From: a virus
Reading direction: 5' to 3' (one strand)
IMG/VR virus record: IMGVR_UViG_3300023179_000320
Span: 1 to 32,678 of that record
Length of the DNA: 32,678 nucleotides
Positions 2,251 through 30,470 of the stretch are shown here, piece after piece (the stretch's first letter is position 1; each line of letters starts with the position of its first letter). Both the position numbers and the translations under genes were made by a program. The notes under the pieces are model-generated. The model was not told the origin of the DNA, did no database searches, and saw nothing but the letters and a program-made list of their open reading frames with translations.

Positions 2251-3183
2251 TTAATTAATAACATAAACATAGGCCGGATTTCCAGCAAATGTTCCATCAC
2301 CAGTAAATGTGTGAACAACATAACCTGATGGTGTTGTGATTGTACCACCAGTAGCATATTGAGTTGAGCCAGCGTAACGAATAATTACAATGCCTGATCC
2401 ACCAGCACCACCGTAACCTATTGGGCCTGGGTCTACATATGTACCTCCGCCGGCACCACCGCCGCCACCGCCACGATTTGTTACGCCAGCAGTTCCTGTG
2501 CTTGTTAAACTTCCAGATCCACCACTTATACCTGGAGTTCCAGGACCACCAGTTCCAGCGGTTGTAAAAGCACCTCCGCCTCCACCTCCTGCGTAAATTA
2601 CAGGAGAACCTGATATAGGAGATGAAGATCCGTTACCACCATTACCACCTATATTTGCAGGATTTGGAGAAGCATTTCCGCCAACACCACCTGCGCCACC
2701 ACCACCTGCGCCTGCTATTCTTACTCCAGGAAATGATCCAGATCCGCCATTATTTCCTTGGCCAGGAGTTCCAGCTCCGCCGGGGCCATCAGCAGCACCG
2801 CCACCAGATCCGCCATCTCTGCCTTGAGCTCCATTACCGTTAGCACCATAGCCACCCCCGATAGCTGTAACAGTTAATCCTGGTCCTGATATAACTGCAT
2901 TTTGGCCATAATTACCTGTGGCACCACCACCACCAACAGTAATAGCATATGAACCAGCTAAAGAAAGTGTTCCACTAGCTGTAATAAGACCTCCAGCGCC
3001 TCCAGCACCTCCACCCCAAGCAGCTGGTGAAACAGAAACTCCACCGCCTCCTCCACCAGCAAGAACAAGATAGTCTACTGAAGTTGGAGCTGTAATATTC
3101 AGTCCTGTTGGAAATTTATATCCTATTGGTCGTGATGAGATTAAATCACTTGAATCTGGAACATTAAGAAAGCTTATAGGCAT
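2251..3183 (-). CDS. Glycine-rich phage tail/adhesin protein, paralogue 1
   Basis: A 310-aa protein. The N-terminus has SSRPIGYKFPTGLNI then VDYLVLAGGGGGG, matching the RPxGYxFPTG...VDYLVVAGG start of four other proteins in this window. The core is dominated by Gly with the family landmarks GTPGQGNNGG and SPISGSPVIYAGGGGGG. The end has GSGIVIIRYAG then GYVVHTFTGDGTF. This is the glycine-rich domain family common in T4-like phages of aquatic bacteria. The role is inferred: poly-Gly stretches could form a polyglycine-II-like sandwich as in the S16 gp38 adhesin, but that is an analogy. The gap to the neighbouring paralogue is 12 bases. Proline-rich open frames on the opposite strand are the complement of GGN codons. 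Confidence 0.75.
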   Translation of the reverse strand: MPISFLNVPDSSDLISSRPIGYKFPTGLNITAPTSVDYLVLAGGGGGGVSVSPAAWGGGAGGAGGLITASGTLSLAGSYAITVGGGGATGNYGQNAVISGPGLTVTAIGGGYGANGNGAQGRDGGSGGGAADGPGGAGTPGQGNNGGSGSFPGVRIAGAGGGGAGGVGGNASPNPANIGGNGGNGSSSPISGSPVIYAGGGGGGAFTTAGTGGPGTPGISGGSGSLTSTGTAGVTNRGGGGGGAGGGTYVDPGPIGYGGAGGSGIVIIRYAGSTQYATGGTITTPSGYVVHTFTGDGTFAGNPAYVYVIN

Positions 3184-3195
3184 TGTATCAAAATA

Positions 3196-4143
3196 TTAAT
3201 TTACAGAGTAAATTGTGTTTGCAATTCTAAAATCAGAATTTGTAGCAAATGTTCCATCACCATTGAATGTATGTATGGAATATCCACCAGATGTTGAGTA
3301 GTTACCACCGCCAGCTGTTTGAGCACCAGCGTAACGAATGATTACAACACCAGAGCCACCAGCGCCAGCTGTATGACCATTGTTGTCACCGCCACCGCCG
3401 CCACCACCTGTGTTTGGCGTTCCTGTACCGCCATTTACAGCACCGTTGTAATGAGAACCAACGCCTCCTCCTCCTGTACCACCTGCACCTCCTGGTCCGC
3501 CTCCGCCAGCAGCGCCAGCAGAACCTCCTCCGCCTCCAGCATAAGTTACTGGTGTTCCAGATAACGGGTAAGCAGCACCAGCACCGCCAGCACCACCCAC
3601 AGATGTATTTACACCACCCGTAGCAGTACCGCCTACTGCGCCCGCACCGCCACCGCCTCCAGCACCTTGACCAGCGGCATTTGCGTCACCACCATTGTTA
3701 CCTTGACCTGGTGTGCCAGAACCAGCAATACTATTAGAGTTTACATCTCCACCACCAGAGCCACCATTTTTACCGTTTGAAGGATTAGAACTACCACCGC
3801 CTCCACCGCCACCGCCTATTGAAGTAAATGAACTAAATATTGAATTTGAGCCGTTGGCACCAGCAGTACCCGGTGTACCTGCCGGACCTCCACCACCTAC
3901 TGTAATAGCATATGGTGTTGAAGAAGCTATTGAAATTGTTCCTGTGAGCAAACCACCAGCACCGCCGCCACCGCCTTGACCTGACGCATAGTTTTCTCTA
4001 CCACCACCCCCACCACCAGCAACCACCAAATAATCCACAGCAGTGTTTGCTGTGGTGGACATGCCTGTTGGAAATTTATATCCTGTTGGTCTTGATGAAC
4101 GTAAATTAGTTGAACCGGGAACATTAAGGAATTTGATTGGCAT
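3196..4143 (-). CDS. Glycine-rich phage tail/adhesin protein, paralogue 2
   Basis: A 315-aa member of the same family. It starts MPIKFLNVPGSTNLRSSRPT and continues GYKFPTGM, nearly the same N-terminus as paralogue 1, so these two are the closest pair at that end. It has GTPGQGNNGG and YPLSGTPVTYAGGGGGS in the core and SGVVIIRYAGAQTAGGGNY near the end. Its last third at the DNA level is identical over 95 bases to the gene at 6065-6889, whose N-terminus is different, so the gene looks mosaic. Its ATG overlaps the stop of the KILGQ gene upstream (TAATG), implying coupled translation. Confidence 0.75.
   Translation of the reverse strand: MPIKFLNVPGSTNLRSSRPTGYKFPTGMSTTANTAVDYLVVAGGGGGGRENYASGQGGGGGAGGLLTGTISIASSTPYAITVGGGGPAGTPGTAGANGSNSIFSSFTSIGGGGGGGGSSNPSNGKNGGSGGGDVNSNSIAGSGTPGQGNNGGDANAAGQGAGGGGGAGAVGGTATGGVNTSVGGAGGAGAAYPLSGTPVTYAGGGGGSAGAAGGGGPGGAGGTGGGGVGSHYNGAVNGGTGTPNTGGGGGGGDNNGHTAGAGGSGVVIIRYAGAQTAGGGNYSTSGGYSIHTFNGDGTFATNSDFRIANTIYSVN
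3266..3360 (-). repeat. 95-base perfect direct repeat, copy 1
   Basis: Compared base by base, this segment equals 6114-6208 with no mismatch and in the same orientation, and diverges immediately on both sides. It encodes the C-terminal VVIIRYAGAQTAGGGNY to GGYSIHTF region of two Gly-rich proteins. Confidence 0.95.
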
Positions 4144-4481
4144 TATGACACTTCCACACCAAATGTTGAAATTGCTAAACTGGCGCCATTTGTATTAGCT
4201 GCAACAACTGTACCAGCTGGCAAAGTTAAAGGAAAATCTAACAATACTGTATCACCATTAGGAGCAATAGAACCCCTCAGTATGAAATGTTTTGGTAACG
4301 GTGTTGTGGAATTCTCAGAAGAAGGAACAACAATGATACTATATGATGCATTTGTTGTTGATAAATTGTTCACATGAATTGAATTTACAAGAGCTGCCGT
4401 AGAGGCAGGCACTACATAAACATTCGTTTGTGTATTGGAACTTGGATTAATCTGACCAAGAATTTTATGAATATTTGGCAT
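4143..4481 (-). CDS. KILGQ-type small beta-rich tail protein, copy 1
   Basis: A 112-aa protein beginning MPNIHKILGQINPSSNTQTN, then VYVVPAST and a pattern of alternating hydrophobic residues ending STFGVEVS. Four domains of this kind occur in the window (here, the end of 4481-5143, 8767-9108, 9108-9455). Shared landmarks are KILGQ, an xNVYVVPAxT strand, SxxIxNxS, an LPAGxVLAANT-like stretch and a final FGVEx. Function is unknown; a small virion beta-sandwich decorating or capping the fibre is a reasonable guess. Both ends overlap neighbours by one base (TAATG), so it is read as part of a coupled fibre - KILGQ - Gly-rich unit. Confidence 0.65.
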   Translation of the reverse strand: MPNIHKILGQINPSSNTQTNVYVVPASTAALVNSIHVNNLSTTNASYSIIVVPSSENSTTPLPKHFILRGSIAPNGDTVLLDFPLTLPAGTVVAANTNGASLAISTFGVEVS

Positions 4482-5143
4482 TAGATAATCTCCACACCGA
4501 AGGCATTAATAGAAATATTTGAACTTGCATTAGCACCAGTAATATTAGCAGAAAGAATAGAACCTACATTAAGTGATATTCTTGGTTCTAAAACTAATGT
4601 TTCAGCAGCACCAAGAGAATAACCAGAAACAATAAAATTCTTTGTTGCTACAGCTGAACCACTTACATTTGCAGCCACATTAACTGATACAGTATTTGGA
4701 CTTTGATTGCAAATTGTAATTGTTGATATCATTGTGTTTGTTGCAGCTGGTACTGTATAAATTGTGGTCAAAATATTTGCTGTTGTTTGAACTTGACCTA
4801 GAATTTTATATGGCAAACGACCAGCGGCTGAATCAGCAATAACACCAACTGCTGAAGAAACAACGGAAAGTTGACCATTAGAAATCGCAGCACCTGGTGC
4901 CAATTTAGTAGAAGTAATACTTGCATCAACTATATTGTTTGCATTAATAATATTTGTTGCAAGTAAATTACCAGTGATTGCACCAGCAGCAATTAAATTA
5001 CCAGTAATCTGTAAAGTGCCAATGTTATTGGCTTTAATTGTGCCTGAAGCTATTTTACCAAATGTGATAGTACCATCTGCAATATCAGAGGCAATAACTG
5101 TGCCGTCTGCAATTGAGTCTGCTATTATTCTGTTAAGTGCCAT
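4481..5143 (-). CDS. Fibre-like protein: decapeptide-repeat shaft fused to a KILGQ domain
   Basis: A 220-aa protein in two parts. Residues 8-87 are about eight 10-residue units of the form xxxIAxGTIT (for example ASDIADGTIT, FGKIASGTIK), the pattern of a beta-structured fibre shaft. Residues 110-220 are a KILGQ domain (YKILGQVQTTANILTTIYTV to the end INAFGVEII) homologous to the three stand-alone copies. It is therefore a natural fusion that ties the KILGQ family to fibre shafts. It leads the first of two similarly ordered blocks. The ribosome-binding site is weak; a NATAAATA box lies only 7 bases before the ATG. Confidence 0.7.
   Translation of the reverse strand: MALNRIIADSIADGTVIASDIADGTITFGKIASGTIKANNIGTLQITGNLIAAGAITGNLLATNIINANNIVDASITSTKLAPGAAISNGQLSVVSSAVGVIADSAAGRLPYKILGQVQTTANILTTIYTVPAATNTMISTITICNQSPNTVSVNVAANVSGSAVATKNFIVSGYSLGAAETLVLEPRISLNVGSILSANITGANASSNISINAFGVEII
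4883..5122 (-). repeat. Eight 10-residue coding repeats (xxxIAxGTIT)
   Basis: Units start at residue 8 of the 220-aa fibre-like protein and keep an exact 10-residue period through residue 87, with Ile/Leu at position 4, Gly or small residues at 7 and Ile at 9-10. They degenerate toward the C-terminal side. Confidence 0.75.
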
Positions 5144-5150
5144 AATGGTC

Positions 5151-5158
5151 TATTTATT
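5151..5158 (-). promoter_or_regulatory. Weak candidate late promoter AATAAATA
   Basis: The minus strand reads AATAAATA 7 bases before the ATG at 5143. If used, the transcript would be essentially leaderless for that gene. It may be chance in the AT-rich gap. Confidence 0.2.
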
Positions 5159-5167
5159 CCGTTTTAA

Positions 5168-5575
5168 TTAATCTTTTGTTGGTGGTTCACCTTCAGATTT
5201 AGGAAACTTTTCTTTGATTTCCTTAATCGCCTTAAACCATTGTGAATTTTTCAATTCAACACCTTCATTGATAGCATGCCACAACATATCAAGTTGTTCA
5301 AACCCATCGGGGTAATGACGGCACCTGTCATATGCATACTGATAATGCTTAGCTAATTTTTCTTGAAAAACAAGTTCTTCATCAATCTCAGCTTTTGTTG
5401 GTGCTGATAAACCATCAGGATGATGCCACTTATGATAAGTAATAACACCACCAGCCATTGCAATTTCAAAAGTGCAACCAGGCCTTAAAGCTTTAATTGC
5501 AGTATCAACACCGACTGGCATTCCGCCTTCGGCTGAAAAATTCTTCATCACTTCACTTGCGTTATTTAAATCCAT
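5168..5575 (-). CDS. Conserved phage hypothetical with QLDMLWHAI motif
   Basis: A 135-aa soluble, charged protein. The N-terminal half contains an aromatic/His cluster (ITYHKWHHPDG). The C-terminal half is helical and carries RHYPDGFEQLDMLWHAINEG, then QWFKAIKEIKEKFPK. The YPxxxEQLDMLWHAI...AIKxxKExFPK pattern is one I recognise in small proteins beside tail-fibre genes of aquatic phages. Its role is not established; tail accessory or fibre-assembly function is only suggested by position. It follows the MAHFAK gene by 17 bases and has a GGAG Shine-Dalgarno shortly before the ATG (TTAGGAGATATAATATG). No membrane segment or signal peptide is seen. Confidence 0.65.
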   Translation of the reverse strand: MDLNNASEVMKNFSAEGGMPVGVDTAIKALRPGCTFEIAMAGGVITYHKWHHPDGLSAPTKAEIDEELVFQEKLAKHYQYAYDRCRHYPDGFEQLDMLWHAINEGVELKNSQWFKAIKEIKEKFPKSEGEPPTKD

Positions 5576-5592
5576 ATTATATCTCCTAATAA

Positions 5593-5988
5593 TTAAAACG
5601 TAACTTCAACCCAATTAACTGTCGCTTCATTCCAACTATACATCTTAGGTGGATTTCCTGTGCCAGCATCAGAAGGCATATCAACAGGAGCTTTCCATCG
5701 GCAAGTTGATTCAACCAATACCCATGATGGATATGGTTTAATTGCAATGAAAGCATCACGACCTGAATCGTATGTCATACCGATACCGGCATAATTTTTA
5801 CGAATGTTATTATTGTAGCTTGTTTGTTTCCAATAAACATCATCATGCACACCATGAACACCTTCAAGGTATGCGATGCCTATTGATTCTACTTCATCAC
5901 CTGTGCCATTAACGCAGTTCCAGTTATCAACAACGGATACATGAAGAACTTCGTTTGTAGCTTTATTAATTTTTGCGAAATGTGCCAT
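5593..5988 (-). CDS. MAHFAK-family conserved T4-like phage protein
   Basis: A 131-aa protein starting MAHFAKINKATNEVLHVSVV and containing WKQTSYNNNIRKNYAGIGMT, YDSGRDAFI and PYPSWVLVESTCRWKAP. This set of motifs marks a protein family found again and again in T4-like phages of cyanobacteria and other aquatic bacteria, usually near tail genes. Its biochemical role is unknown. The start is well supported by a strong GGAGGT seven bases upstream. A CATAAATA late-promoter box sits 35 bases upstream in a 76-base intergenic gap, so the gene probably heads its own late transcript that also covers the QLDMLWHAI gene. Confidence 0.8.
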   Translation of the reverse strand: MAHFAKINKATNEVLHVSVVDNWNCVNGTGDEVESIGIAYLEGVHGVHDDVYWKQTSYNNNIRKNYAGIGMTYDSGRDAFIAIKPYPSWVLVESTCRWKAPVDMPSDAGTGNPPKMYSWNEATVNWVEVTF

Positions 5989-6023
5989 TTTTTTACCTCC
6001 AAAATAGTATAAAAAGATACCTT

Positions 6024-6031
6024 TATTTATG
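6024..6031 (-). promoter_or_regulatory. Late promoter CATAAATA
   Basis: The minus strand reads CATAAATA, a form of the NATAAATA late promoter of T4-like phages. It is 35 bases before the MAHFAK ATG, inside a true intergenic gap, and is followed by a strong GGAGGT at 5995-6000. Spacing to box, leader and ribosome-binding site are all as expected. Confidence 0.65.
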
Positions 6032-6064
6032 CTATCTTTATTGTGATATTATTTTTTTTGCCCG

Positions 6065-6889
6065 TTAATTTATAGAGTATTGACTGTTAGCACGAAAAGT
6101 TCCATCACCAGTAAATGTATGTATGGAATATCCACCAGATGTTGAGTAGTTACCACCGCCAGCTGTTTGAGCACCAGCGTAACGAATGATTACAACACCA
6201 GAGCCACCTGTACCAGAATTTCCGCCACCTCTATTAGCCGTAGGGCCACCGCCAGAGCCGTTTGACCCAGGTCCGTAAGTGTCACCCCAACCGGCACCGC
6301 CTCCAGCATAAGTAACAGGTGTGCCACTAATTGGTGATGCTACGCCACTTCCACCGTTACCACCTGCACCAGCATTACCACCATTTGATCCTACGCTACC
6401 TGCGCCGCCACCGCCACCATTTGATGTAAAACTTACTCCGTCAGTAAAACCTCGCCCACCAGCATAACCTTGTCCTGGTGTTCCTGCGCCACCAAGACCA
6501 TTTGATCCGCCACCACCACCACCTGAACCGCCACTATTAGAATTTCCTGAGGGAACTCCCCAACCGCCACCCAAAGATGTGACAGTATGAAAAATAGAAG
6601 AACTTCCATTTGTAGATGCGCCGGCGCCGCCTACTGTGACTGCGTAATTAGTTCCTTTTGTGAGATTTAATGTAGATTCAGCAGGTGCGCCACCACCAGA
6701 AGTTCCCACAGAAGTGCGATATCCGCCAGCTCCACCTCCACCTCTTATTGATCCACCAGCACCACCTGCTACTACAAGAAAATCTACTGAAAGTGGATCA
6801 TCATCACTATTCAATCCTGTTGGAAAAGTATATCCATCTGGTCTAACAAGAGCAAGACTTTTAGAAGCTTTTAAAAATTCAATTCCCAT
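6065..6889 (-). CDS. Glycine-rich phage tail/adhesin protein, paralogue 3
   Basis: A 274-aa member of the Gly-rich family and the shortest of the five. N-terminal landmarks are LVRPDGYTFPTGLNSDDD and VDFLVVAGGAGGS; core landmarks are GTPGQGYAGGRG and SPISGTPVTYAGGGAGW; the end is SGVVIIRYAGAQTAGGGNY then GYSIHTFTGDGTF. The C-terminal DNA is identical over 95 bases to paralogue 2, although its N-terminus groups with no single neighbour. The core differs in length and in its interspersed aromatic residues (a Trp after the poly-Gly stretch). It is the last gene of the second Gly-rich run, eight bases after paralogue 4. Confidence 0.75.
   Translation of the reverse strand: MGIEFLKASKSLALVRPDGYTFPTGLNSDDDPLSVDFLVVAGGAGGSIRGGGGAGGYRTSVGTSGGGAPAESTLNLTKGTNYAVTVGGAGASTNGSSSIFHTVTSLGGGWGVPSGNSNSGGSGGGGGGSNGLGGAGTPGQGYAGGRGFTDGVSFTSNGGGGGAGSVGSNGGNAGAGGNGGSGVASPISGTPVTYAGGGAGWGDTYGPGSNGSGGGPTANRGGGNSGTGGSGVVIIRYAGAQTAGGGNYSTSGGYSIHTFTGDGTFRANSQYSIN
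6114..6208 (-). repeat. 95-base perfect direct repeat, copy 2
   Basis: Identical to 3266-3360 in the same orientation. The block covers the conserved C-terminal part of paralogue 3. Matching of third codon positions as well as protein shows recent copying or gene conversion, not just protein conservation. Confidence 0.95.
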
Positions 6890-6897
6890 TTTGTATC

Positions 6898-7821
6898 TTA
6901 ATTAATAGAGTAACTTATTGTATTAGAACGGAAAGTTCCATCACCAGTAAATGTATGTATAGAATAACCACCAGATGATAAGTAATTTCCACCACCAGCT
7001 AGTTGACTACCAGTATAACGGATGATTACAATTCCACCAGCACCGTTGCCACCAGAAGTTGTGCCGCCACCACCGCCGCCACTTCCAGTATTTGGACTAC
7101 CAGCACCTCCAGTACCTGTAGAACCACCACCACCAATTCCAGAACCTCCAGAACCAAGATTATTTTGTCCTAATCCAGATAATCCACCGCCACCACCACC
7201 GCCAGCATATGTTACTGGTGAACCTGAATATGGTGATGGAGAACCAGAACCTCCAGAACCGCTAGTATAAGGACCAGATGGAATATTTGCATAAGAGCCA
7301 GCACCACCAGATCCTCCTGCGCCGCCACCGCCACCCATCGCAACTGAACTACCAGCACCTCCATTATTTCCTTGACCTGGTGTTCCTAAACCACCATTGC
7401 CGGCAGAACTGTTATAAACATCAGATCCGCCGCCACCGCAACCACCGGATCTTCCATGTACAGTTGTTCCACTACCACCTCCACCGCCGCCAATTGCAGT
7501 TAATGAACTGAATATTGAATTGCTACCATTAGCACCGGCATCAGAAGCTGGTGTACCAGCAGGACCACCACCGCCAACTGATATTGGATAAGATGTTCCT
7601 TTAGTTATTGAAAATCCTGAAGCTGTGAGAAATCCACCAGCACCTCCGCCGCCACCTTGACCTTGAGCACCACCACCGCCACCAGCAATAACAAGATAAT
7701 CTACTGAAGTTGGACCATCAGCAGCATCTCCAGTATTAGACAATCCTGTTGGAAAAATGTATCCACTTGGCCTAATTAACTTGCCAACTTTATTTGATTT
7801 TATGAATTTGATTGCTGACAT
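6898..7821 (-). CDS. Glycine-rich phage tail/adhesin protein, paralogue 4
   Basis: A 307-aa member of the family. It begins MSAIKFIKSNKVGKLIRPSG and continues YIFPTGL and VDYLVIAGGGGGA. The core has GTPGQGNNGGAG and SPYSGSPVTYAGGGGGG, and the end has GAGGIVIIRYTGSQLAGGGN followed by GYSIHTFTGDGTF. A Cys-Gly-Gly-Gly-Gly stretch (SGGCGGGGSD) gives it the only core cysteine I notice in the family. The start is three bases after the stop of paralogue 5, so translation is likely coupled. Function is inferred as for the others: surface-exposed fibre tip or decoration. Confidence 0.75.
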   Translation of the reverse strand: MSAIKFIKSNKVGKLIRPSGYIFPTGLSNTGDAADGPTSVDYLVIAGGGGGAQGQGGGGGAGGFLTASGFSITKGTSYPISVGGGGPAGTPASDAGANGSNSIFSSLTAIGGGGGGSGTTVHGRSGGCGGGGSDVYNSSAGNGGLGTPGQGNNGGAGSSVAMGGGGGAGGSGGAGSYANIPSGPYTSGSGGSGSPSPYSGSPVTYAGGGGGGGLSGLGQNNLGSGGSGIGGGGSTGTGGAGSPNTGSGGGGGGTTSGGNGAGGIVIIRYTGSQLAGGGNYLSSGGYSIHTFTGDGTFRSNTISYSIN

Positions 7822-7823
7822 TT

Positions 7824-8750
7824 TTAATTTATAAAGTAACCAGTTGTATTAGCACTAAAGGTTGAATCACCAGTAAATCTATGTATAGAATATCCACCTG
7901 ATGAAGAATAGTTTCCACCAGCTGCAGCTTGTGAACCTGTATAACGAATGATTACAACACCTGAACCTCCGCCACCACCTGTTCCAGGAGTGGCACCAGT
8001 TGAACCAGCACCACCGCCACCGCCACCAGTATTTGGTGAACCAGAACCTGCAGTTCCACTACCCACTCCAGATCCACCTGGTGTGCCACCTGAACCTCCT
8101 GGTCCGTTATTGTCAGCTCCGCCGCCGCCACCGCCAGAATATGTTACTGGTGTGCTTGAGTATGGTGATGAAGAACCAGATCCGCCATTACCACCAGTAT
8201 TTCCACTTCCAGCGCTACCAACAGAACCTGCTCCACCACCGCCACCGCCAGATGCGTTGTTTTGAGTGCTGTTACCACCAGAACTACCACCATTATTTCC
8301 TTGACCTGGTGTGCCAGATCCGCCAGCAGTATTTTGACCACCTCCGCCGCCGCCGCCTGATCCACCAGAACCGCCTGTTCCACCATCATTAGCGCCAGTG
8401 CCTTTACCACCACCAATAGAAGTTATTGTAGAAAAAACACTATTTGATCCAGAAACTCCAGGAGTTGTTCTAGCCGCACCGCCTGGACCGCCACCACCTA
8501 CTGTGATAGAATACGGTGTTCCTTGAATGATAGAAAATCCTGTGCCTGTTTGAAAACCACCAGCGCCACCACCAGCACCACTACCATGGCCAGTATTAAC
8601 TTCACCGCCTCCGCCACCTCCACCAGCAACTACAAGATAGTCTACTAAAAAATTATCTGCACGACCAAAAGTTAAACCTGTTGGATATGTGTATCCACTA
8701 GGTCTAACAAAAGAACCAATTGGAGAAGTTTTTAGAAATAGTATCGCCAT
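7824..8750 (-). CDS. Glycine-rich phage tail/adhesin protein, paralogue 5
   Basis: A 308-aa member heading the run of three. It starts MAILFLKTSPIGSFVRPSGY then TYPTGL and VDYLVVAGGGGGG. Core landmarks are GTPGQGNNGGSS and SPYSSTPVTYSGGGGGG, and the end is SGVVIIRYTGSQAAAGGNYS and GYSIHRFTGDSTF, where two otherwise conserved positions differ (HRF for HTF, DSTF for DGTF). A strong GAGGTG ribosome-binding site sits just before the ATG, so this gene is the best candidate for independent translation in the group. It follows the KILGQ pair by 16 bases. Confidence 0.75.
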   Translation of the reverse strand: MAILFLKTSPIGSFVRPSGYTYPTGLTFGRADNFLVDYLVVAGGGGGGGEVNTGHGSGAGGGAGGFQTGTGFSIIQGTPYSITVGGGGPGGAARTTPGVSGSNSVFSTITSIGGGKGTGANDGGTGGSGGSGGGGGGGQNTAGGSGTPGQGNNGGSSGGNSTQNNASGGGGGGAGSVGSAGSGNTGGNGGSGSSSPYSSTPVTYSGGGGGGADNNGPGGSGGTPGGSGVGSGTAGSGSPNTGGGGGGAGSTGATPGTGGGGGSGVVIIRYTGSQAAAGGNYSSSGGYSIHRFTGDSTFSANTTGYFIN

Positions 8751-8766
8751 ATCACCTCAAATAAAT

Positions 8767-9108
8767 TTAAGTGATTTCAACACCGAACGCAGAAAAAGAT
8801 ATACTTGCTGAGTTTGTATTTGCGGCTAATATTGCACCTGCTGGTAATGTTAAACTTAAAGTAAGTGTTGCCGCATCTGATGCTGGTATTGTACTACCAC
8901 GAATAATATAATACATTGAATTAGAAGCTGGACTTGCAAAGTTAGCAGACGGCATTACAATCAAACTATATGATGAATTCGTTGCTGATTGATTTGCAAT
9001 TTGAACTGAATTGATTACTGTTGATGTTGCGGCAGGAACCACATAGACATTACTTTGTGTGTTTGCCGATGGGTTTACTTGACCAAGAATTTTATAGGTA
9101 TTAGGCAT
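8767..9108 (-). CDS. KILGQ-type small beta-rich tail protein, copy 3
   Basis: A 113-aa protein beginning MPNTYKILGQVNPSANTQSN, then VYVVPAATSTVINSVQIANQ. It is closest to copy 1 at 4143-4481: both share MPNxxKILGQxNPSxNTQxN, the LPAG-I/V-xAANTN stretch and the FGVEx end, which supports block duplication. Its start overlaps the stop of copy 4 by one base (TAATG). No enzyme motif, signal peptide or membrane segment is present. Role unknown, presumed virion. Confidence 0.65.
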   Translation of the reverse strand: MPNTYKILGQVNPSANTQSNVYVVPAATSTVINSVQIANQSATNSSYSLIVMPSANFASPASNSMYYIIRGSTIPASDAATLTLSLTLPAGAILAANTNSASISFSAFGVEIT

Positions 9109-9455
9109 TATGTTAACTCTACTCCAAATACGTTGAACGATACATTAGCAGCAGTTTCACCAGAAGCAACAGCATTATTTACTGCAACAATAACCGATGC
9201 ATTAAGTGTAACACCTGGTGACAAAATCATTGTGTCTGCTCTAGGAATTGTAACACCTTTTATCAAGTAGTGTTTGTTTGCTAATGTTTCATTGATTGGT
9301 CTAATCATAATATCTACGTTTGCATTAGCAGAACTTTGATTACAAATAGTAATCGTACTAACAATTGCAGATGTTGATGTTGGTACCACATACACATTAC
9401 TCAACAAGTTAGCAGTTGGTAATGTTTGACCTAAAATTTTATATGTTGTTGGCAT
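9108..9455 (-). CDS. KILGQ-type small beta-rich tail protein, copy 4
   Basis: A 115-aa protein beginning MPTTYKILGQTLPTANLLSN and ending NVSFNVFGVELT. The strand IVSTITICNQSSANANVDI matches the KILGQ domain of the fusion protein at 4481-5143 (MISTITICNQSPNTVSVNV) better than the other stand-alone copies. Thus the two blocks pair up copy by copy: fusion domain with this one, copy 1 with copy 3. One-base TAATG overlaps at both ends place it in a coupled series with the MSYLGN fibre upstream. Confidence 0.65.
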   Translation of the reverse strand: MPTTYKILGQTLPTANLLSNVYVVPTSTSAIVSTITICNQSSANANVDIMIRPINETLANKHYLIKGVTIPRADTMILSPGVTLNASVIVAVNNAVASGETAANVSFNVFGVELT

Positions 9456-10159
9456 TATGACCCCATTGCTGTAAAGAAGAACGGATGAGCATCCACACCC
9501 GTCACTACTTGTGTTGATACTGTATTAACACGACCATTTGCAGAAACAGTAATGATTGGATAATAAGCTGCATTTCCGTATGTACCACTAGTAATACTTA
9601 TGTTAGTTACATCCGTGTTTGCTTGCGTGAAAGCACCGTTTGCATATGCTGCAGCTGAGTTAGCTGAAGCGAAAGATGAATTAGCGTATGAAGCTGCACT
9701 ATTTGCACCAGCAAAACCTGAGTTTGCATAACTAGCTGCTGAGTTAGCAATGTAACTTGGTGTATTTGCTTGAATGAAAGCAGCATTAGCATAAATGGCT
9801 GCTGAATTTGCGGTTGCAGTAGGTAATGTACCAGATGCTAGTTTAGATGCAGTAATTGTTCCATCTGGTATCTGAGAATTTAAAATATTACTATAAGTGA
9901 TAACAGTTGTTGCACGATAGGTAACAATAATATTTTGAGTACCAGAAGGCGGCGCTTCGGTAAATGTAATTACACCACTAGCAATAGAATAGGAATTTAT
10001 TGGGTCTTGCTGAACACTACTTACAATAACTTCAATTGCATTAGCATCAGAAATTCCAGTTTGTGTTATAGTAAACTGTGTGCAAGCACCTGTACCGTTG
10101 AACCTTTCGGTTGAAACGATAAATGATCCTACACCAGGCTCGTTGCCAAGGTATGACAT
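9455..10159 (-). CDS. Tail fibre protein of MSYLGN type with 14-residue repeats
   Basis: A 234-aa protein. Residues 1-90 are the MSYLGN beta domain shared with the 239-aa protein (here FNGTGACTQFTITQTG and ITFTEAPPSGTQNIIVTYRA). Residues 95-112 have SQIPDGTITASKLASGTL, a shaft motif that also resembles the decapeptide repeats of the 220-aa fibre. Residues 117-181 hold tandem 14-residue units (ANSAASYANSGFAG type). The C-terminus has YYPIITVSANGRVNTVSTQV, a motif seen at the ends of phage fibre proteins. A GGAG lies before the ATG. It heads the second fibre - KILGQ - Gly-rich block. Confidence 0.7.
   Translation of the reverse strand: MSYLGNEPGVGSFIVSTERFNGTGACTQFTITQTGISDANAIEVIVSSVQQDPINSYSIASGVITFTEAPPSGTQNIIVTYRATTVITYSNILNSQIPDGTITASKLASGTLPTATANSAAIYANAAFIQANTPSYIANSAASYANSGFAGANSAASYANSSFASANSAAAYANGAFTQANTDVTNISITSGTYGNAAYYPIITVSANGRVNTVSTQVVTGVDAHPFFFTAMGS
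9617..9811 (-). repeat. Tandem 14-residue (42-base) coding repeats
   Basis: Residues 117-181 of the 234-aa fibre consist of about four to five units such as ANSAASYANSGFAG, ANSAASYANSSFAS and ANSAAAYANGAFTQ. The 14-residue period equals two heptads, with Tyr and Phe recurring at fixed positions, compatible with a trimeric stalk. Confidence 0.75.
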
Positions 10160-10514: not shown

Positions 10515-10522
10515 TATTTATA
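10515..10522 (-). promoter_or_regulatory. T4-type late promoter TATAAATA
   Basis: A perfect minus-strand TATAAATA sits directly after the stop of the 105-aa gene and 27 bases before the next ATG at 10487. Sequence, orientation and spacing fit a T4-like late promoter at the head of the adhesin block. Confidence 0.7.
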
Positions 10523-11068: not shown

Positions 11069-14000
11069 TTAAGCACCAGCAGGTAATGCGATTGCACGGA
11101 AGTCACGAACTTTTGGTACATCAACTGTAGATGTTCCAGTCAAAACAATTTTGATTGCAAATGTTCTGAATGTATTATATCCGGTTGAAGCCGATGTATA
11201 TGATACAGCATTGTTTGCAGTATTGTTTGTTCCTGGTGCATAAGCTATTTCACGATAGTCATCTTGATTTGCTGACACAAAGTTAGAATTTGATAACTGT
11301 GTCATCAATTGATAGTTCTTATCATCAAATGTGTCAGCGTCTGATGTGGATAAAATCTTGTAGTATACAAGTATATCGGCACCAGTTGGTTTATATGCAG
11401 TTAGATAAACACGCAAATCACCAGAATCAAAACCGTCAGCAAGTGTAACACGGCGAGTAATATAACGAACAGAACCATTACCGCCAGATTTCTTATCTTC
11501 ACCGTTATATGTGATTGTTGCACCGGTGCCTGGTGTTGTGTTTGCATCAACCAATGTAATAGTTGGAGATGTTGTGTATCCAGAACCAACATTTGTCAAG
11601 TATACAGATGTAACAACATTATTAGTCACAACAGCAGCTGCGGTTGCACCTGAACCATTACCACCAGTAATTGTTACAGTAGCATTTGCGTTTGTTGAGT
11701 AAGCTGTACCACCACTTGAAAGAGTTATGCCAGAATTGCTTAATGGCAAGTTATTAATAATATTCTCAACAGCAATAATGCCGTAACGAGAAGTGTCTAA
11801 TATTGGTGAAACATCTGGATTAGTTGTTGCAACAGTTGCTGACACATTAAGTGTGGAGTTTCCTGTTGCTGGGTTTAAAACACGGCGACCATAACCATCA
11901 AGCATTTCATAATCTTTAAATGGTGTTACAGATAAAGCAGGTGTCAAACCGCCAGTTGATTTTTCAGATTTGAAGTTGTAAACAATGGATGTATTGGCCA
12001 AAGAAATATCAGAAGTAATTAAATGCATCAAATCATAAACAGTATTTGATGTTGGGTAATTAACAGTAAAGAAAGCAGTTATTGGTGTTGTACTAAATGT
12101 ATAACGGAACAATCTAAACATCATATCAGAATTTTGGTCAGCCGTCCATGTTGAACCGTTTTGTGACAAGAACAATGAACCACCATAAGGTTGTTCAGAA
12201 ATTTGTCTTTGATTTACCAAATCTAGTTTACCAATTTCAGCAATATAGACTTCATATTTGTTTGAATTGGATAACAGAACAAACGAATGTTCTCCAGGTT
12301 GCAAATATAATGGTGCATCAAATGTAAACTCAGTATATTTTGTTGCATCATCTAAACTTGGAGATGAAGTTGTTTTAACTTTATCTGGAGTTAATGTAAC
12401 TGTTGAATATGGATAAACTATTGAAGATGATGGGTAACCATTTGTTGCAGGTCTAACTTGCAATGTAATTGGTTGTGAACTATCAGCTGATTTGAAACAG
12501 AAGCGAGCTTTACTCAGAAAAATACCTTGTGGATAATTTACTGGAGAAACAAGGAATGTTTGTGCTAAAGGATCCCAATACCCAATAACAACTTCTTTAG
12601 ATGTGGTTGAAGTAATTACTCTTGTGTCGGTTGCAGCTGCACGCTGAATAGTTGGAACAGTTGTTGAGATAATAGTATTCTCAGTCTGTTGCAAAATACC
12701 TTGTGCAAAGAATGTTGCATCACCGTTTGTTGAAGAAGATGGAATATCTCCAGTTGAATTATCAATTAATCGGAAATTCTTTTCACCAACACGGAACTGA
12801 CTTGCTGGAATACTAAAGACACCAGCAATATCACCAGCATTGGTTGTTGTTAAACGACCAATTGAGTATACAGAATCGGTAGATGGTGTTGTTGTCCATG
12901 TTCCAGTAATTGCCACATTTCTTGTAGCAGTTGTGTAAGCAGAAATTGTTGCTTGTTGACCAGCACCAGTACCAGAAACAATACTGATTGGTTGACCAAC
13001 AAGAGAACCAATATTATTTGCGGCAGATGCATCAACAGCCAAGACAATAGTATTTGCCGTAGCAGAAGATGCTATACCAGAATAGTGGTCATATCCGTTA
13101 ATCTTATATGTTGTACCAGTTGATTGGCCAACAAGATTCATCGTAGCGCCATTAAATGCTGTTGATGGGTTTACACTAATTATAAATGCTTCAGTATTAG
13201 AAGTACGAACAACAAATGCGGTACCATTAGTTGTGCTTGTTGCTGTATTAGAAACATTTACAGTTTCAGGATTGCCAGATTGTGTTCTATATTGTAAATT
13301 ATTTGCAGCTAATGTAACTTTATTTGCACGAGCAACATATTTCTCAACAGTTGTATTATCAAAAAATGGATATAATGTTGTATTAGCTTTGAAATCTGAA
13401 CCAGTAAATAATACAGTTCTATTCCTCATATAAGGAATAATAGAAACATCAATTACACGGTCACCAAGTGATTGTGTTATAGTGGATGGAACAACTTGTG
13501 TTTTAATACCAGTCCTAATTTGATTTGATGTTGTAGTTGTTGTTTGTGTTCCATAAACAAGGTCATAATGACCAGTTGTACCTAACCAACCACGATATTC
13601 ACCACCACTAGTAGATGTGCCGGTCCAATATGTTGACCAATCACTCCATTCATATGAAAAAGCGTTTTGTGCGATAATAGCCCATGCATCTTTATCACCT
13701 TGTAAATTAACCAAAACATCTGGTTGTTTACTTGTATCAACCCAAATATCAGAAGGTGGATCTAAATTAATTTTACCCAAATAATTAATTACATTGAATG
13801 GGTTTACATTAATTGAACGAGATGCTTTTGATTGGTCAATTAATGCTGTATGTGTTCCATTAGCCGTAATTAACGGACCAGATTTCATGTAATTTGTAGA
13901 AGTTGCAGAATCAAAAGTCAACAAATGCGAAGAGATGTTGAAAGTTGGACGCATCTCTTTGTTTTGTGGGTCAATAGATGCTTCAAATTCATCTCTTGAA

Positions 14001-17000
14001 ACATCAGCAACGGATGAACCATTAAAAGAATCTACAATAATACCATTTTTAAATCTTGGTAAATTTGTGCTATCAAGAATAGTTAAATCTTGTTTATTAA
14101 CAGCAGATTGCTCTAACAAAGATAGTGCAGTATAGTATTCTAAGTTTTCAACACGCTTAGAAATTGTGCCAATATCTCGCATCGTATAACGGCGATTATC
14201 GGTATATTCAACTTTTGTATCGGCAGTATTGGCAAGATAGGCAGGATGACGAAGAATATAAAGAGTCATTGACCCATCTTTTTCTTTTGGTTCAACAGGA
14301 GTCAATGAAGGCACTCCAGAAAGAACTTCAAAAGATTTATTCTTGTTCAATATTACCTTATCAATTCTTGGTAAATAATATTGATAGCTTAAAGTGATTG
14401 TGGAACCATTCTGTGGAATCTTAGGACCAGTCGTGGTTGAAGCAACATCAAAGCTGACGGTGTTTGCTGTAGCCGCAGTTGTCGGTATGGAACGGACAGG
14501 TCTATAATCTAAACTATCACGCAACTCATATGAATTGCCTGTAGTAGCTGATGTATACACAGGTATATTTGCATAGAATGGGTATGAATCTACTGTAAAG
14601 AATCCAGAGTCAGTAGTGGTACTATATCTATTATATTTTACAACTAATGGTCCTGTTGGCGCACTTACGCCTGGTTTTAATTTGATTGATGAATGGTCAT
14701 AATAAGAATCTCTTTGACCTGTATCAAGGCTATATCTAGAAGTAACATCAATTGCAGAAGATGAATTAGCTACAGTAATTGCAGTATTGTTAAAATCTAA
14801 AACTTGTACCGATACTACATCAGGAACAAATAAAGATTGGAGTGTATCTGGTGTCTTATACACAGTATTGGCCATAATATGAACTTGGCCATTTGCTGAA
14901 TAAGTTATGACGCCATTGTTTGCAAAAATACTTGTTCCACCTGAAGTTTGAACGGTAGCATTAGCAGAAACAAAAGTTTTTGATTTTGCCGTTGGGTTAG
15001 TAACATCAATTGTAGCAATCACATTTGCTGTCATACTACTACCACCAGTAACACTAATCTGGCGATTGGCATCATCAACAGTAAATAAATTAGGAGGAAT
15101 AATATCACCAACTTTATAAGATGATCCTCCAACAGCAGTTACAACAATTTGATATTTTTGAATTTCAGTTGATGAACTACTTGCTGGTGAAAGAACTTCT
15201 GGTCCTATATCAACAGACATTTGAGCTGATGTTCCAGATGTAAATTGCAAATCTTTATAAAGTTTTTTATATGAATGATAATAATTTGCTATGCTACCAG
15301 CTGTAACATATTTTTGTCCTAAACCAAATATTAATGGTTCAAGTGATTTATCAACAAGGTAAGCGTCTTCATATGTTGATGAATAATCTCTTGAACCAAT
15401 ATCAATATCTGCACCATTAATTTTAGTTGTTGAATTGAATGTAGCCAAAGAATCAACATCATTAAATTCAAAATCAATTGACCATATTGAAGTTGTGTTT
15501 GGTGTTGCAGAAAATGGTGAAGAGAGTGTTATTACTCCAGTTGCACCATTATAATTTGTAATAAATTTTGGTGCTTCGCCAGAACCTGGTCCAGCAGATA
15601 TACGAACTTTAGCACCGGTGTATGCGTTATTTACTGTTGAATAGTATTGACCACTACCAATATTACCAATTGTGATAGATGTGGAGTTAGAAGTTAAAAC
15701 ATTACCTGTAAGTGAACCAATATTTACATCAAACAAATATGTGCGATATACAAACGATTGTGCATTTGAAGTGTTTGCTGCACCATCAAACTCTACCGAT
15801 TTAACTCTTGCTGTACCAATTTTTGTATTAGTAATAGTTGCTGTTGTAGAAGTATTAATTAAACTATTAGCTACACAATGTAAATCTACTGTTTGCAAAC
15901 TATTGATTGGAAATGTTCCATAATTGTTATTTGCATAAACAAAATAACCATAGTCAGCAGAAACTTTCTTTGCAGTTACCGAATCACCCAATCTTGGTTT
16001 GTCAAATGTAATTGTTGTTGGTCCAATAGTTTCAAATTCATAACCATAGACATATGCTTTTCCAGGTGACAAAACAACATTTGCTTTTGCGGTATTAGCT
16101 GCACTTGTATCTAACGCAATTTTAAATGGCCGAACTGTATAATTACCAGATTCGTCATATGTTCTACGAGCAAGGGTTTCTTCTAATACCGCATATAGTG
16201 GGTATTGAACTGAGTAAACTAAGTAACCATTTTCAACACGAGCAATTTCAATAAATTGTGTATCATCGGTTGAAGTTAATGAGCGTGTAGCAAGAACAAG
16301 TTCTACCTTATAACGATCCGAACCAGGAGCTTGGTAATTTGAAGCATCTTGTGCTGGGTCAAGCAAAGAAGTATCTTGTGATGAAACAACAACGGATTCA
16401 GTTACTTCAAAACCAATACGAACATTGGCTGTTGTATTACTATATTTTGATGTTGCAATAGTTTGTGGGTCGGTTTTAATAAAAAAACCATCATAAAAAT
16501 AAACACCTTCATTTGCAGAGAATACTTGACCTGTACCAACACCAGATGTTGAAACATTTGCAAATACTGGCGAAGTTTCAGAAGTTTGAATTGTATCACC
16601 AGCAACAAATGCAGCACCATATAATTGTTTAATTAAAATTGTTTTTGGATCACCTGTGCCAGCATTAGCATCATAAACAATAACAACTTCACCACGCTTT
16701 GTACCTGTTGAATTTGTAATTGTTTTACCATTAAAATTGGTTACAGATACAGCCGTTCCAGAATAATCGGTATCTATTTTAAGATATGTAGCATCCTGTA
16801 AGAATGTTTGACCACCAGTTACAATAGAACCATTTTTGAAAACATGATTACCAAAACGACTGGTTTGGTTTTGTAATAGGGTTTGTAACTGTGTTAATTC
16901 ACGAGCTTGAACTGCATAGCCTGGTTTGAACAACAGCCGAAGAAACTTTTTATCTTCGTCAAAATCGTCATAATACGGATTGACATTAAAATTAGTATTT

Positions 17001-17008
17001 AACGACAT
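11069..17008 (-). CDS. Giant DUF4815-like virion structural protein, gp10 position
   Basis: A 1979-aa protein, the largest gene here. Residues 1-70 (NVNPYYDDFDEDKKFLRLLF, then KPGYAVQARELTQLQTLLQ) match the DUF4815-type N-terminus of structural proteins in T4-like cyanophages. About a third to half way in, roughly at 14100-14190, is a conserved coil (YTMRDIGTISKRVENLEYY). The rest is beta-rich Ser/Thr/Asn sequence. Near the C-terminus a GSGYTTSPTITL-type module appears, before a final domain ending KVRDFRAIALPAGA. T4 gene order 6-7-8-(9)-10 puts this in the gp10 slot (T4 gp10 is about 600 aa), so it may be a wedge/fibre-platform protein; homology to gp10 is positional inference only. It has no separate promoter and an AAGGAA ribosome-binding site. 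Confidence 0.8.
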   Translation of the reverse strand: MSLNTNFNVNPYYDDFDEDKKFLRLLFKPGYAVQARELTQLQTLLQNQTSRFGNHVFKNGSIVTGGQTFLQDATYLKIDTDYSGTAVSVTNFNGKTITNSTGTKRGEVVIVYDANAGTGDPKTILIKQLYGAAFVAGDTIQTSETSPVFANVSTSGVGTGQVFSANEGVYFYDGFFIKTDPQTIATSKYSNTTANVRIGFEVTESVVVSSQDTSLLDPAQDASNYQAPGSDRYKVELVLATRSLTSTDDTQFIEIARVENGYLVYSVQYPLYAVLEETLARRTYDESGNYTVRPFKIALDTSAANTAKANVVLSPGKAYVYGYEFETIGPTTITFDKPRLGDSVTAKKVSADYGYFVYANNNYGTFPINSLQTVDLHCVANSLINTSTTATITNTKIGTARVKSVEFDGAANTSNAQSFVYRTYLFDVNIGSLTGNVLTSNSTSITIGNIGSGQYYSTVNNAYTGAKVRISAGPGSGEAPKFITNYNGATGVITLSSPFSATPNTTSIWSIDFEFNDVDSLATFNSTTKINGADIDIGSRDYSSTYEDAYLVDKSLEPLIFGLGQKYVTAGSIANYYHSYKKLYKDLQFTSGTSAQMSVDIGPEVLSPASSSSTEIQKYQIVVTAVGGSSYKVGDIIPPNLFTVDDANRQISVTGGSSMTANVIATIDVTNPTAKSKTFVSANATVQTSGGTSIFANNGVITYSANGQVHIMANTVYKTPDTLQSLFVPDVVSVQVLDFNNTAITVANSSSAIDVTSRYSLDTGQRDSYYDHSSIKLKPGVSAPTGPLVVKYNRYSTTTDSGFFTVDSYPFYANIPVYTSATTGNSYELRDSLDYRPVRSIPTTAATANTVSFDVASTTTGPKIPQNGSTITLSYQYYLPRIDKVILNKNKSFEVLSGVPSLTPVEPKEKDGSMTLYILRHPAYLANTADTKVEYTDNRRYTMRDIGTISKRVENLEYYTALSLLEQSAVNKQDLTILDSTNLPRFKNGIIVDSFNGSSVADVSRDEFEASIDPQNKEMRPTFNISSHLLTFDSATSTNYMKSGPLITANGTHTALIDQSKASRSINVNPFNVINYLGKINLDPPSDIWVDTSKQPDVLVNLQGDKDAWAIIAQNAFSYEWSDWSTYWTGTSTSGGEYRGWLGTTGHYDLVYGTQTTTTTSNQIRTGIKTQVVPSTITQSLGDRVIDVSIIPYMRNRTVLFTGSDFKANTTLYPFFDNTTVEKYVARANKVTLAANNLQYRTQSGNPETVNVSNTATSTTNGTAFVVRTSNTEAFIISVNPSTAFNGATMNLVGQSTGTTYKINGYDHYSGIASSATANTIVLAVDASAANNIGSLVGQPISIVSGTGAGQQATISAYTTATRNVAITGTWTTTPSTDSVYSIGRLTTTNAGDIAGVFSIPASQFRVGEKNFRLIDNSTGDIPSSSTNGDATFFAQGILQQTENTIISTTVPTIQRAAATDTRVITSTTSKEVVIGYWDPLAQTFLVSPVNYPQGIFLSKARFCFKSADSSQPITLQVRPATNGYPSSSIVYPYSTVTLTPDKVKTTSSPSLDDATKYTEFTFDAPLYLQPGEHSFVLLSNSNKYEVYIAEIGKLDLVNQRQISEQPYGGSLFLSQNGSTWTADQNSDMMFRLFRYTFSTTPITAFFTVNYPTSNTVYDLMHLITSDISLANTSIVYNFKSEKSTGGLTPALSVTPFKDYEMLDGYGRRVLNPATGNSTLNVSATVATTNPDVSPILDTSRYGIIAVENIINNLPLSNSGITLSSGGTAYSTNANATVTITGGNGSGATAAAVVTNNVVTSVYLTNVGSGYTTSPTITLVDANTTPGTGATITYNGEDKKSGGNGSVRYITRRVTLADGFDSGDLRVYLTAYKPTGADILVYYKILSTSDADTFDDKNYQLMTQLSNSNFVSANQDDYREIAYAPGTNNTANNAVSYTSASTGYNTFRTFAIKIVLTGTSTVDVPKVRDFRAIALPAGA

Positions 17009-29937: not shown

Positions 29938-29945
29938 TATTTATA
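29938..29945 (-). promoter_or_regulatory. T4-type late promoter TATAAATA heading the baseplate operon
   Basis: A perfect minus-strand TATAAATA lies in the 33-base divergent gap between the gp48-like gene and gp4, 26 bases before the gp48 ATG. It shares its last base with the first base of the plus-strand gp4 ATG. Position at the head of about 29 kb of colinear minus-strand genes makes it the most convincing promoter here. Confidence 0.75.
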
Positions 29946-30462: not shown

Positions 30463-30470
30463 TATAAATA
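30463..30470 (+). promoter_or_regulatory. TATAAATA box just before a start codon
   Basis: A perfect plus-strand TATAAATA lies only 4 bases before the ATG at 30475, in an 83-base gap after gp4. If it is a late promoter, the transcript would begin at or inside the start codon (leaderless); otherwise it serves only the genes further on, or is chance. Confidence 0.4.

Follow-up and report, generated by a model that had tools for sequence, protein, structure and literature searches.

Phage receptor-binding proteins are well established to join a constant N-terminal anchor to a distal part that is exchanged (e.g., PMC10408124; PMC12692247), and we examine this principle here for five glycine-rich genes (G1 to G5) of the IMG/VR virus record IMGVR_UViG_3300023179_000320, a fragment of 32,678 bases analysed over its whole length and hereafter called the window. 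The S16/T2-type gp38 adhesins (PF05268, PF21721; PDB 6F45) are modular host-range determinants (PMC12892980; PMC7917993), in which a Gly-rich lattice with variable loops is carried at the fibre tip by a short N-terminal attachment part. The fibre protein gp24 of cyanophage Pam3 (PDB 7ypx, 7yfw) combines a TNF-like domain with a Gly-rich region that has a conserved Gly stem and variable distal loops, and host recognition by the variable distal tip was proposed by its authors (PMC9608196). The tail-tip protein of mycobacteriophage Bxb1 (PDB 9d93, chains Qa and Qb) contains the same fold region. Among the haloarchaeal hafunaviruses, viruses of the same species that carry Gly-rich adhesins of different phylogenetic groups differ in host range (PMC8651126), and such within-species adhesin differences are what replacement of whole blocks predicts.

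We contend, with a probability of about 0.72, that the five genes encode the receptor-binding tips (adhesins) of T4-like myovirus tail fibres, each built from a position-specific tag and an exchangeable body, with several used at once and specificity changed by replacement of the whole body. The first module would be an N-terminal tag of 17-19 residues that ends in RP and docks on the fibre tip or on a jelly-roll partner protein; the second, the body from GYxFPxG to the stop codon, would comprise a TNF-like beta part and a Gly-rich lattice, with loops of variable length that face the host. Each phage would carry several adhesins simultaneously, and recombination would swap the whole body behind a constant tag, the replacement coming from another phage or from a paralogue within the same genome, and thereby change specificity. 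We infer that the proteins are located in the virion and bind receptors; the host-range differences among hafunaviruses with different Gly-rich adhesins make the host-range reading likely, and wholesale body swapping between virus strains probably changes which bacteria are gripped.

New relative to the established anchor principle are the marked shortness of the position-specific tag, the arrangement in a multi-copy array and the small proteins encoded alongside. The gp38 adhesins work alike but show no detectable homology, occur as one copy per genome and have an attachment domain that Pfam puts at about 40 residues, compared with the 17-19-residue tag. Pam3 gp24 has its own N-terminal alpha-helical trimerisation and docking domain and forms a single fibre with the chaperone gp25, whereas the window proteins have the tag instead, five paralogues and a preceding jelly-roll protein; a Pam3-type helical domain was not found in them, as only 17-19 residues precede RPxGY and the model of G5 contains no helix of four or more residues. 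Bxb1 differs in being a siphovirus tail tip, where a tagged multi-copy array is not in evidence, and hafunaviruses in having one adhesin gene per virus and halophilic archaeal hosts.

The window is a fragment of a T4-like myovirus, a freshwater-type virus of bacteria, in which gp6 and gp8 baseplate domains and baseplate-wedge PHROGs were found; the nearest cultured gp6 relatives, OM43 phage Melnitz and SAR11 phage HTVC008M, share about 42% identity. All five genes are intact, lie on the minus strand and sit between baseplate wedge genes and tail-fibre genes. Positions 1 to 3 are occupied by G5 (7824-8750; tag 8700-8750, MAILFLKTSPIGSFVRP; body 7824-8699), G4 (6898-7821; tag 7768-7821, MSAIKFIKSNKVGKLIRP) and G3 (6065-6889; tag 6839-6889, MGIEFLKASKSLALVRP), and the first and second positions of cassette 2 by G2 (3196-4143; tag 4087-4143, MPIKFLNVPGSTNLRSSRP) and G1 (2251-3183; tag 3127-3183, MPISFLNVPDSSDLISSRP). 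Positions 2251-8750 are not a pure array: G5, G4 and G3 are contiguous and are followed in transcription order by genes for proteins of 131, 135, 220 and 112 amino acids (aa), which separate G3 from G2 and G1.

The first-pass annotation, made from the letters alone, had described five genes with common landmarks, and these were borne out with small exceptions (YPTG and GDSTF in G5, YPLSGTPV in G2, IVIIRY in G1 and G4). The five proteins are 51-61% identical to one another or to their closest family members, and pairwise alignment scores lie 24-35 standard deviations above composition-preserving shuffles, so that the likeness exceeds mere Gly-rich composition. All five match Pfam Gly_rich_2 (PF21722; 64.9, 68.6, 25.1, 71.7 and 60.9 bits, curated cut-off 24.3 bits). 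The further proposal of conserved anchors around a variable core also holds: Gly runs alternate with fixed-length connectors (SPxSGxPVxY, VVIIRY) and with high-entropy loops of variable length, as would suit a stem that is conserved and tips that vary. A tblastn search of G5 against cultured phages gave no match, probably masked by low-complexity filtering, and relatives, mostly metagenome contigs, were gathered via the gp6, jelly-roll and phrog_7759 genes and a gene for a 1979-aa anchor protein. Related records with this family carry 2-7 Gly-rich genes, whose bodies are exchanged as blocks.

Splitting 56 proteins at RPxGY reveals two modules. Tags are mostly 9-20 residues long, and their sequence follows gene position across distant phages, with other tag sets in other lineages: MxILFLKxxxxGSFVRP at position 1, MSAIKFIKxNKVGKLIRP at position 2, MGIEFLKASKxxALVRP at position 3 and MPIxFLNVPxSxxLxSSRP in cassette 2. 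Pairs from the same position have 84-100% of tag residues alike in most cases, while their bodies are 47-63% identical; as random family pairs reach 55±5%, same-position bodies are no more alike than random ones, and tag and body are thus separate modules. The tag probably folds only on its partner, be it the fibre tip or the upstream jelly-roll protein of 112-115 aa, as suggested by the low model confidence in this part. In a related contig (L180), the gene at 3507-4121 opens like a tagged Gly-rich one (RPLSYTFPTGL) and continues into an autotransporter-type PATR repeat; bodies that are not Gly-rich may therefore be carried by the tag too. In the closest relative by the 1979-aa anchor (L115, 94%), the position-1 Gly-rich gene at 3847-4755 starts differently (MALPSSGVIKFSNINTELG...), without an RPxGY tag.

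The boundary between the modules is also where near-identical strains diverge. Contigs L116 and L119 share 95.7% identity over about 15 kb; at the nucleotide (nt) level identity is 95-100% in the shaft gene and mostly 98% in the jelly-roll gene, while in both Gly-rich bodies it is mostly 48-78%. It could be argued that bodies diverge very fast in place, by replication slippage at Gly codons and selection on loops, without any exchange, and the low-complexity sequence with its many length-variable loops would suit this. Codon sharing at identical residues is, however, 0.97 and 0.93 in the flanks and 0.47 and 0.47 in the bodies, against 0.45±0.05 for random family pairs, which means that replacement, and not mutation in place, changed the L116/L119 bodies. 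In-place hypervariation is therefore rejected for this pair, and it is largely refuted for the contig L194 too, where a chimera and the sharp RPxGY boundary require block replacement; overall we give this explanation hardly any credence.

Contig L194 is about 93% identical to the window, and its gene at the G3 position is a natural chimera of tag and body: nucleotides 1-59 are G3-like, with the G3 tag matched over 51 of 51 nt, the rest to the stop codon is G5 (95% nt identity), and beyond the stop codon the sequence is again that downstream of G3. No exact match longer than 20 nt exists between G3 and G5, and the homology at the junctions is only about 7 and 10 nt, which speaks against repeat misassembly. 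When other carriers of the G5 body were sought, the L194 contig alone was returned. On a smaller scale, a C-terminal tract of G2 (3266-3360, minus strand) is identical over 95 nt to one of G3 (6114-6208, minus strand), as expected of a gene-conversion or copy tract, and paralogues in the window (G2/G3) and in two further contigs (L182 and L001) have been homogenised over C-terminal stretches of about 120 nt, with 92-95% identity. Modular exchange among the Gly-rich proteins is hence supported by the L116/L119 replacement and the L194 chimera.

The first-pass annotation had also raised the idea of a reservoir for host-range switching by recombination, for which the chimera is one direct case and the conversion tracts offer further support. 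In its strict form, this would make the array mainly a silent or semi-silent store, with a single copy in use and the rest serving as donors of bodies for intragenomic gene conversion, as the G5 body at the G3 position of L194 and the intragenomic tracts would allow. We regard this as rather improbable: a paralogous source exists for only one full body among those compared, the other replaced bodies match nothing sampled and come mostly from outside the sampled genomes, and recombinase-type inverted repeats were not found. Every copy is moreover intact, bears its own position-specific tag and lies at near-zero spacing, and this points to simultaneous use more than to a silent reservoir. A phase-variable (invertible) tail-fibre system was rejected, all copies being on the same strand with only weak, chance-like inverted repeats of up to 30 nt within the fragment, beyond which a recombinase may still be encoded. 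Block replacement with synonymous divergence is likewise not the pattern expected of a diversity-generating retroelement, for which no dedicated search was made.

The predicted fold agrees with adhesins built from a tag and an exchangeable body. An AlphaFold2 monomer model of G5, built with 51 homologues in the alignment, reached a mean predicted local distance difference test (pLDDT) score of 86.9 and a predicted template modelling score of 0.84, with residues 1-30 at 42-58 and the body mostly at 80-98. Its long core without regular helix or strand matches the Bxb1 tail tip (9d93_Qb; Z 14.9, root-mean-square deviation 2.9, 172 aligned residues, 34% identity), the TNF-like plus Gly-rich region of the Pam3 fibre (7ypx_A; Z 14.3, 2.5, 174 residues, 28% identity) and, far more weakly, the glycine-rich domains of ALK/LTK (Z about 5), and the Pam3 fibre was the sole match of the family profile against the PDB (E 8e-5). 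The earlier suggestion of a phage tail adhesin with a core of probable poly-glycine type is thus supported, but not its kinship with S16 gp38, which is not among the structural matches listed for the G5 model. No homology to gp38 was found: gp38 matches PF05268 and PF21721 and not PF21722, the window proteins match only PF21722, and hhalign gave a probability of 0.5%. The nearer relative is Pam3 gp24.

A second line of evidence comes from a family of small jelly-roll proteins, distantly related to phrog_1276, that accompanies the Gly-rich genes. A 113-aa member (8767-9108, minus strand), a candidate fibre-tip adaptor ring, lies directly upstream of G5, a 112-aa paralogue (4143-4481, minus strand) has a stop codon that overlaps the G2 start by 1 nt, and a 115-aa paralogue (9108-9455, minus strand) has relatives elsewhere that are fused to the C-terminus of fibre-shaft-like proteins. 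The pairing recurs in the unrelated phages phiPsal1 and ct2KA10, and 39 distinct Gly-rich genes begin within 16 nt of the stop codon of this 112-aa family, with a 1-nt overlap in 23. The model of the jelly-roll protein has eight strands (pLDDT 91), and the family profile had no match in the PDB. The top structural match of the model is a trimeric head cement protein (Z 9.7), though the fold is very common, and from this one might suppose a general surface decoration of head or tail without receptor specificity. The genes lie, however, between baseplate wedge and tail-fibre genes, the Gly-rich fold matches receptor-binding regions of a tail tip and a fibre, and block replacement among near-identical strains is typical of host-range proteins, so that we consider mere decoration very improbable.

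In Mantel tests, distances in the 112-aa family correlate with those of the tag (r=0.40, p=0.0002) and not with those of the body (r=0.04, p=0.32), and tag and body are uncorrelated (r=0.07, p=0.14). Linkage by itself would let the tag track a neighbouring gene, and the conserved N-terminus could, instead of being a docking tag, be a remnant of a recombination homology anchor at the gene start, or reflect a constraint on translation beside the upstream stop codon, which overlaps the gene start in the 23 of 39 first-position genes above. We judge such an origin unlikely, though the most serious of the competing explanations, as tags differ among positions within one genome, each is kept in distant phages, position-wise tags are also kept in second and third genes that do not follow a jelly-roll gene, and the conservation is at the amino-acid level (MxIxFLK...RP).

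Downstream of G3 lies the gene for a 131-aa protein (5593-5988, minus strand) of phrog_7759, which accompanies Gly-rich genes in many phages and is a candidate cognate chaperone or accessory. A same-strand Gly-rich open reading frame was present at 52 of 80 phrog_7759 loci; the control of gp6 loci (0 of 80) is weak, as these rarely extend to the cassette, and a set of 42 loci was listed by hand and partly picked for Gly-rich reading frames, hence only the 52 of 80 are quoted. The family profile had no match in the PDB. This widespread unannotated family (MAHFAKI...WKQTSYN...RKNYAGIG) also occurs in Melnitz-3 (L367; 1813-2184 and 7501-7848) and Melnitz EXVC044M (L368; 4443-4826). These cultured T4-like Kyanoviridae (OM43 phages, MZ577095-MZ577098) likewise have Gly-rich genes with constant N-termini, exchanged bodies and phrog_7759 partners, but no tandem array with RPxGYxFPTG tags. 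Between the two isolates, flanks are 99-100% identical, and constant N-termini are followed by a Gly-rich body in one isolate and by an unrelated one in the other; at both exchanged places phrog_7759 is present only beside the Gly-rich version, and a role as dedicated chaperone or accessory is a candidate function. Over 3218-9558 in Melnitz-3 and 3218-9734 in Melnitz EXVC044M, at least four C-terminal bodies are exchanged (genes 175, 177, 181 and 183), and altered gene lengths in the tail region were reported by the Melnitz authors (PMC9004378). In several Melnitz copies an IHTFTG strand precedes the Gly-rich region: the IHTFTGxGTF strand stands before it in Melnitz-3 (86810-87685 and 98459-99292) and in phiPsal1 (L348; 15950-16747) and after it in the window family, as if the unit had been circularly permuted.

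It can be speculated, tentatively, that the tags form an addressing code, which would assign every adhesin a fibre or jelly-roll adaptor of its own; a single virion would then show several receptor specificities, each exchangeable independently (related records have up to seven Gly-rich genes), with bodies plugging in across addresses and phages together with the dedicated accessory phrog_7759.

Several points weigh against receptor-binding tips of this modular kind. Short tags give noisy distances, the Mantel tests ignore phylogeny, and neighbour linkage alone could produce the correlation between the 112-aa family and the tag, which therefore does not prove docking. The G5 model is a monomer, the trimeric state of the tips is putative, and the L194 chimera rests on a single metagenome contig. 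Several syntenic relatives had no match to the family profile, so that a body of this type is dispensable. On a small panel, host ranges were identical for Melnitz isolates with differences in the tail region (PMC9004378). The comparisons nevertheless yield a testable, sequence-level account of a possible route to host change in abundant aquatic T4-like phages, through a minimal tag, a clean RPxGY joint and a replaceable body, and they provide natural before-and-after pairs (L116/L119, the window/L194 and Melnitz-3/Melnitz). Candidate functions are also offered for the widespread, unannotated 112-115-aa jelly-roll proteins and phrog_7759, and for the Gly-rich family phrog_2295.

The remaining genes of the region, all on the minus strand, are consistent with a fibre locus. 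A 234-aa tail-fibre-like protein (phrog_18673; 9455-10159) is the candidate shaft of cassette 1, and a 220-aa tail-fibre-like protein (4481-5143), the C-terminal part of which resembles the 112-115-aa family, is that of cassette 2. The 135-aa protein (phrog_9114/1787-like; 5168-5575) is a syntenic partner of the 131-aa gene, and a 239-aa tail-fibre-like protein (1492-2211) is encoded downstream of cassette 2. The motif TATAAATA shows no excess over chance in the window; three of its four occurrences are found a short way upstream of a gene start, as T4 late promoters are (10515-10522 and 29938-29945 on the minus strand, 30463-30470 on the plus strand), the first of them 28 nt upstream of the gene for a 108-aa protein with which the fibre operon opens. 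The 1979-aa baseplate-region protein (phrog_358, unknown function; 11069-17008, minus strand) is a syntenic marker for the start of the fibre region in many freshwater T4-like contigs.

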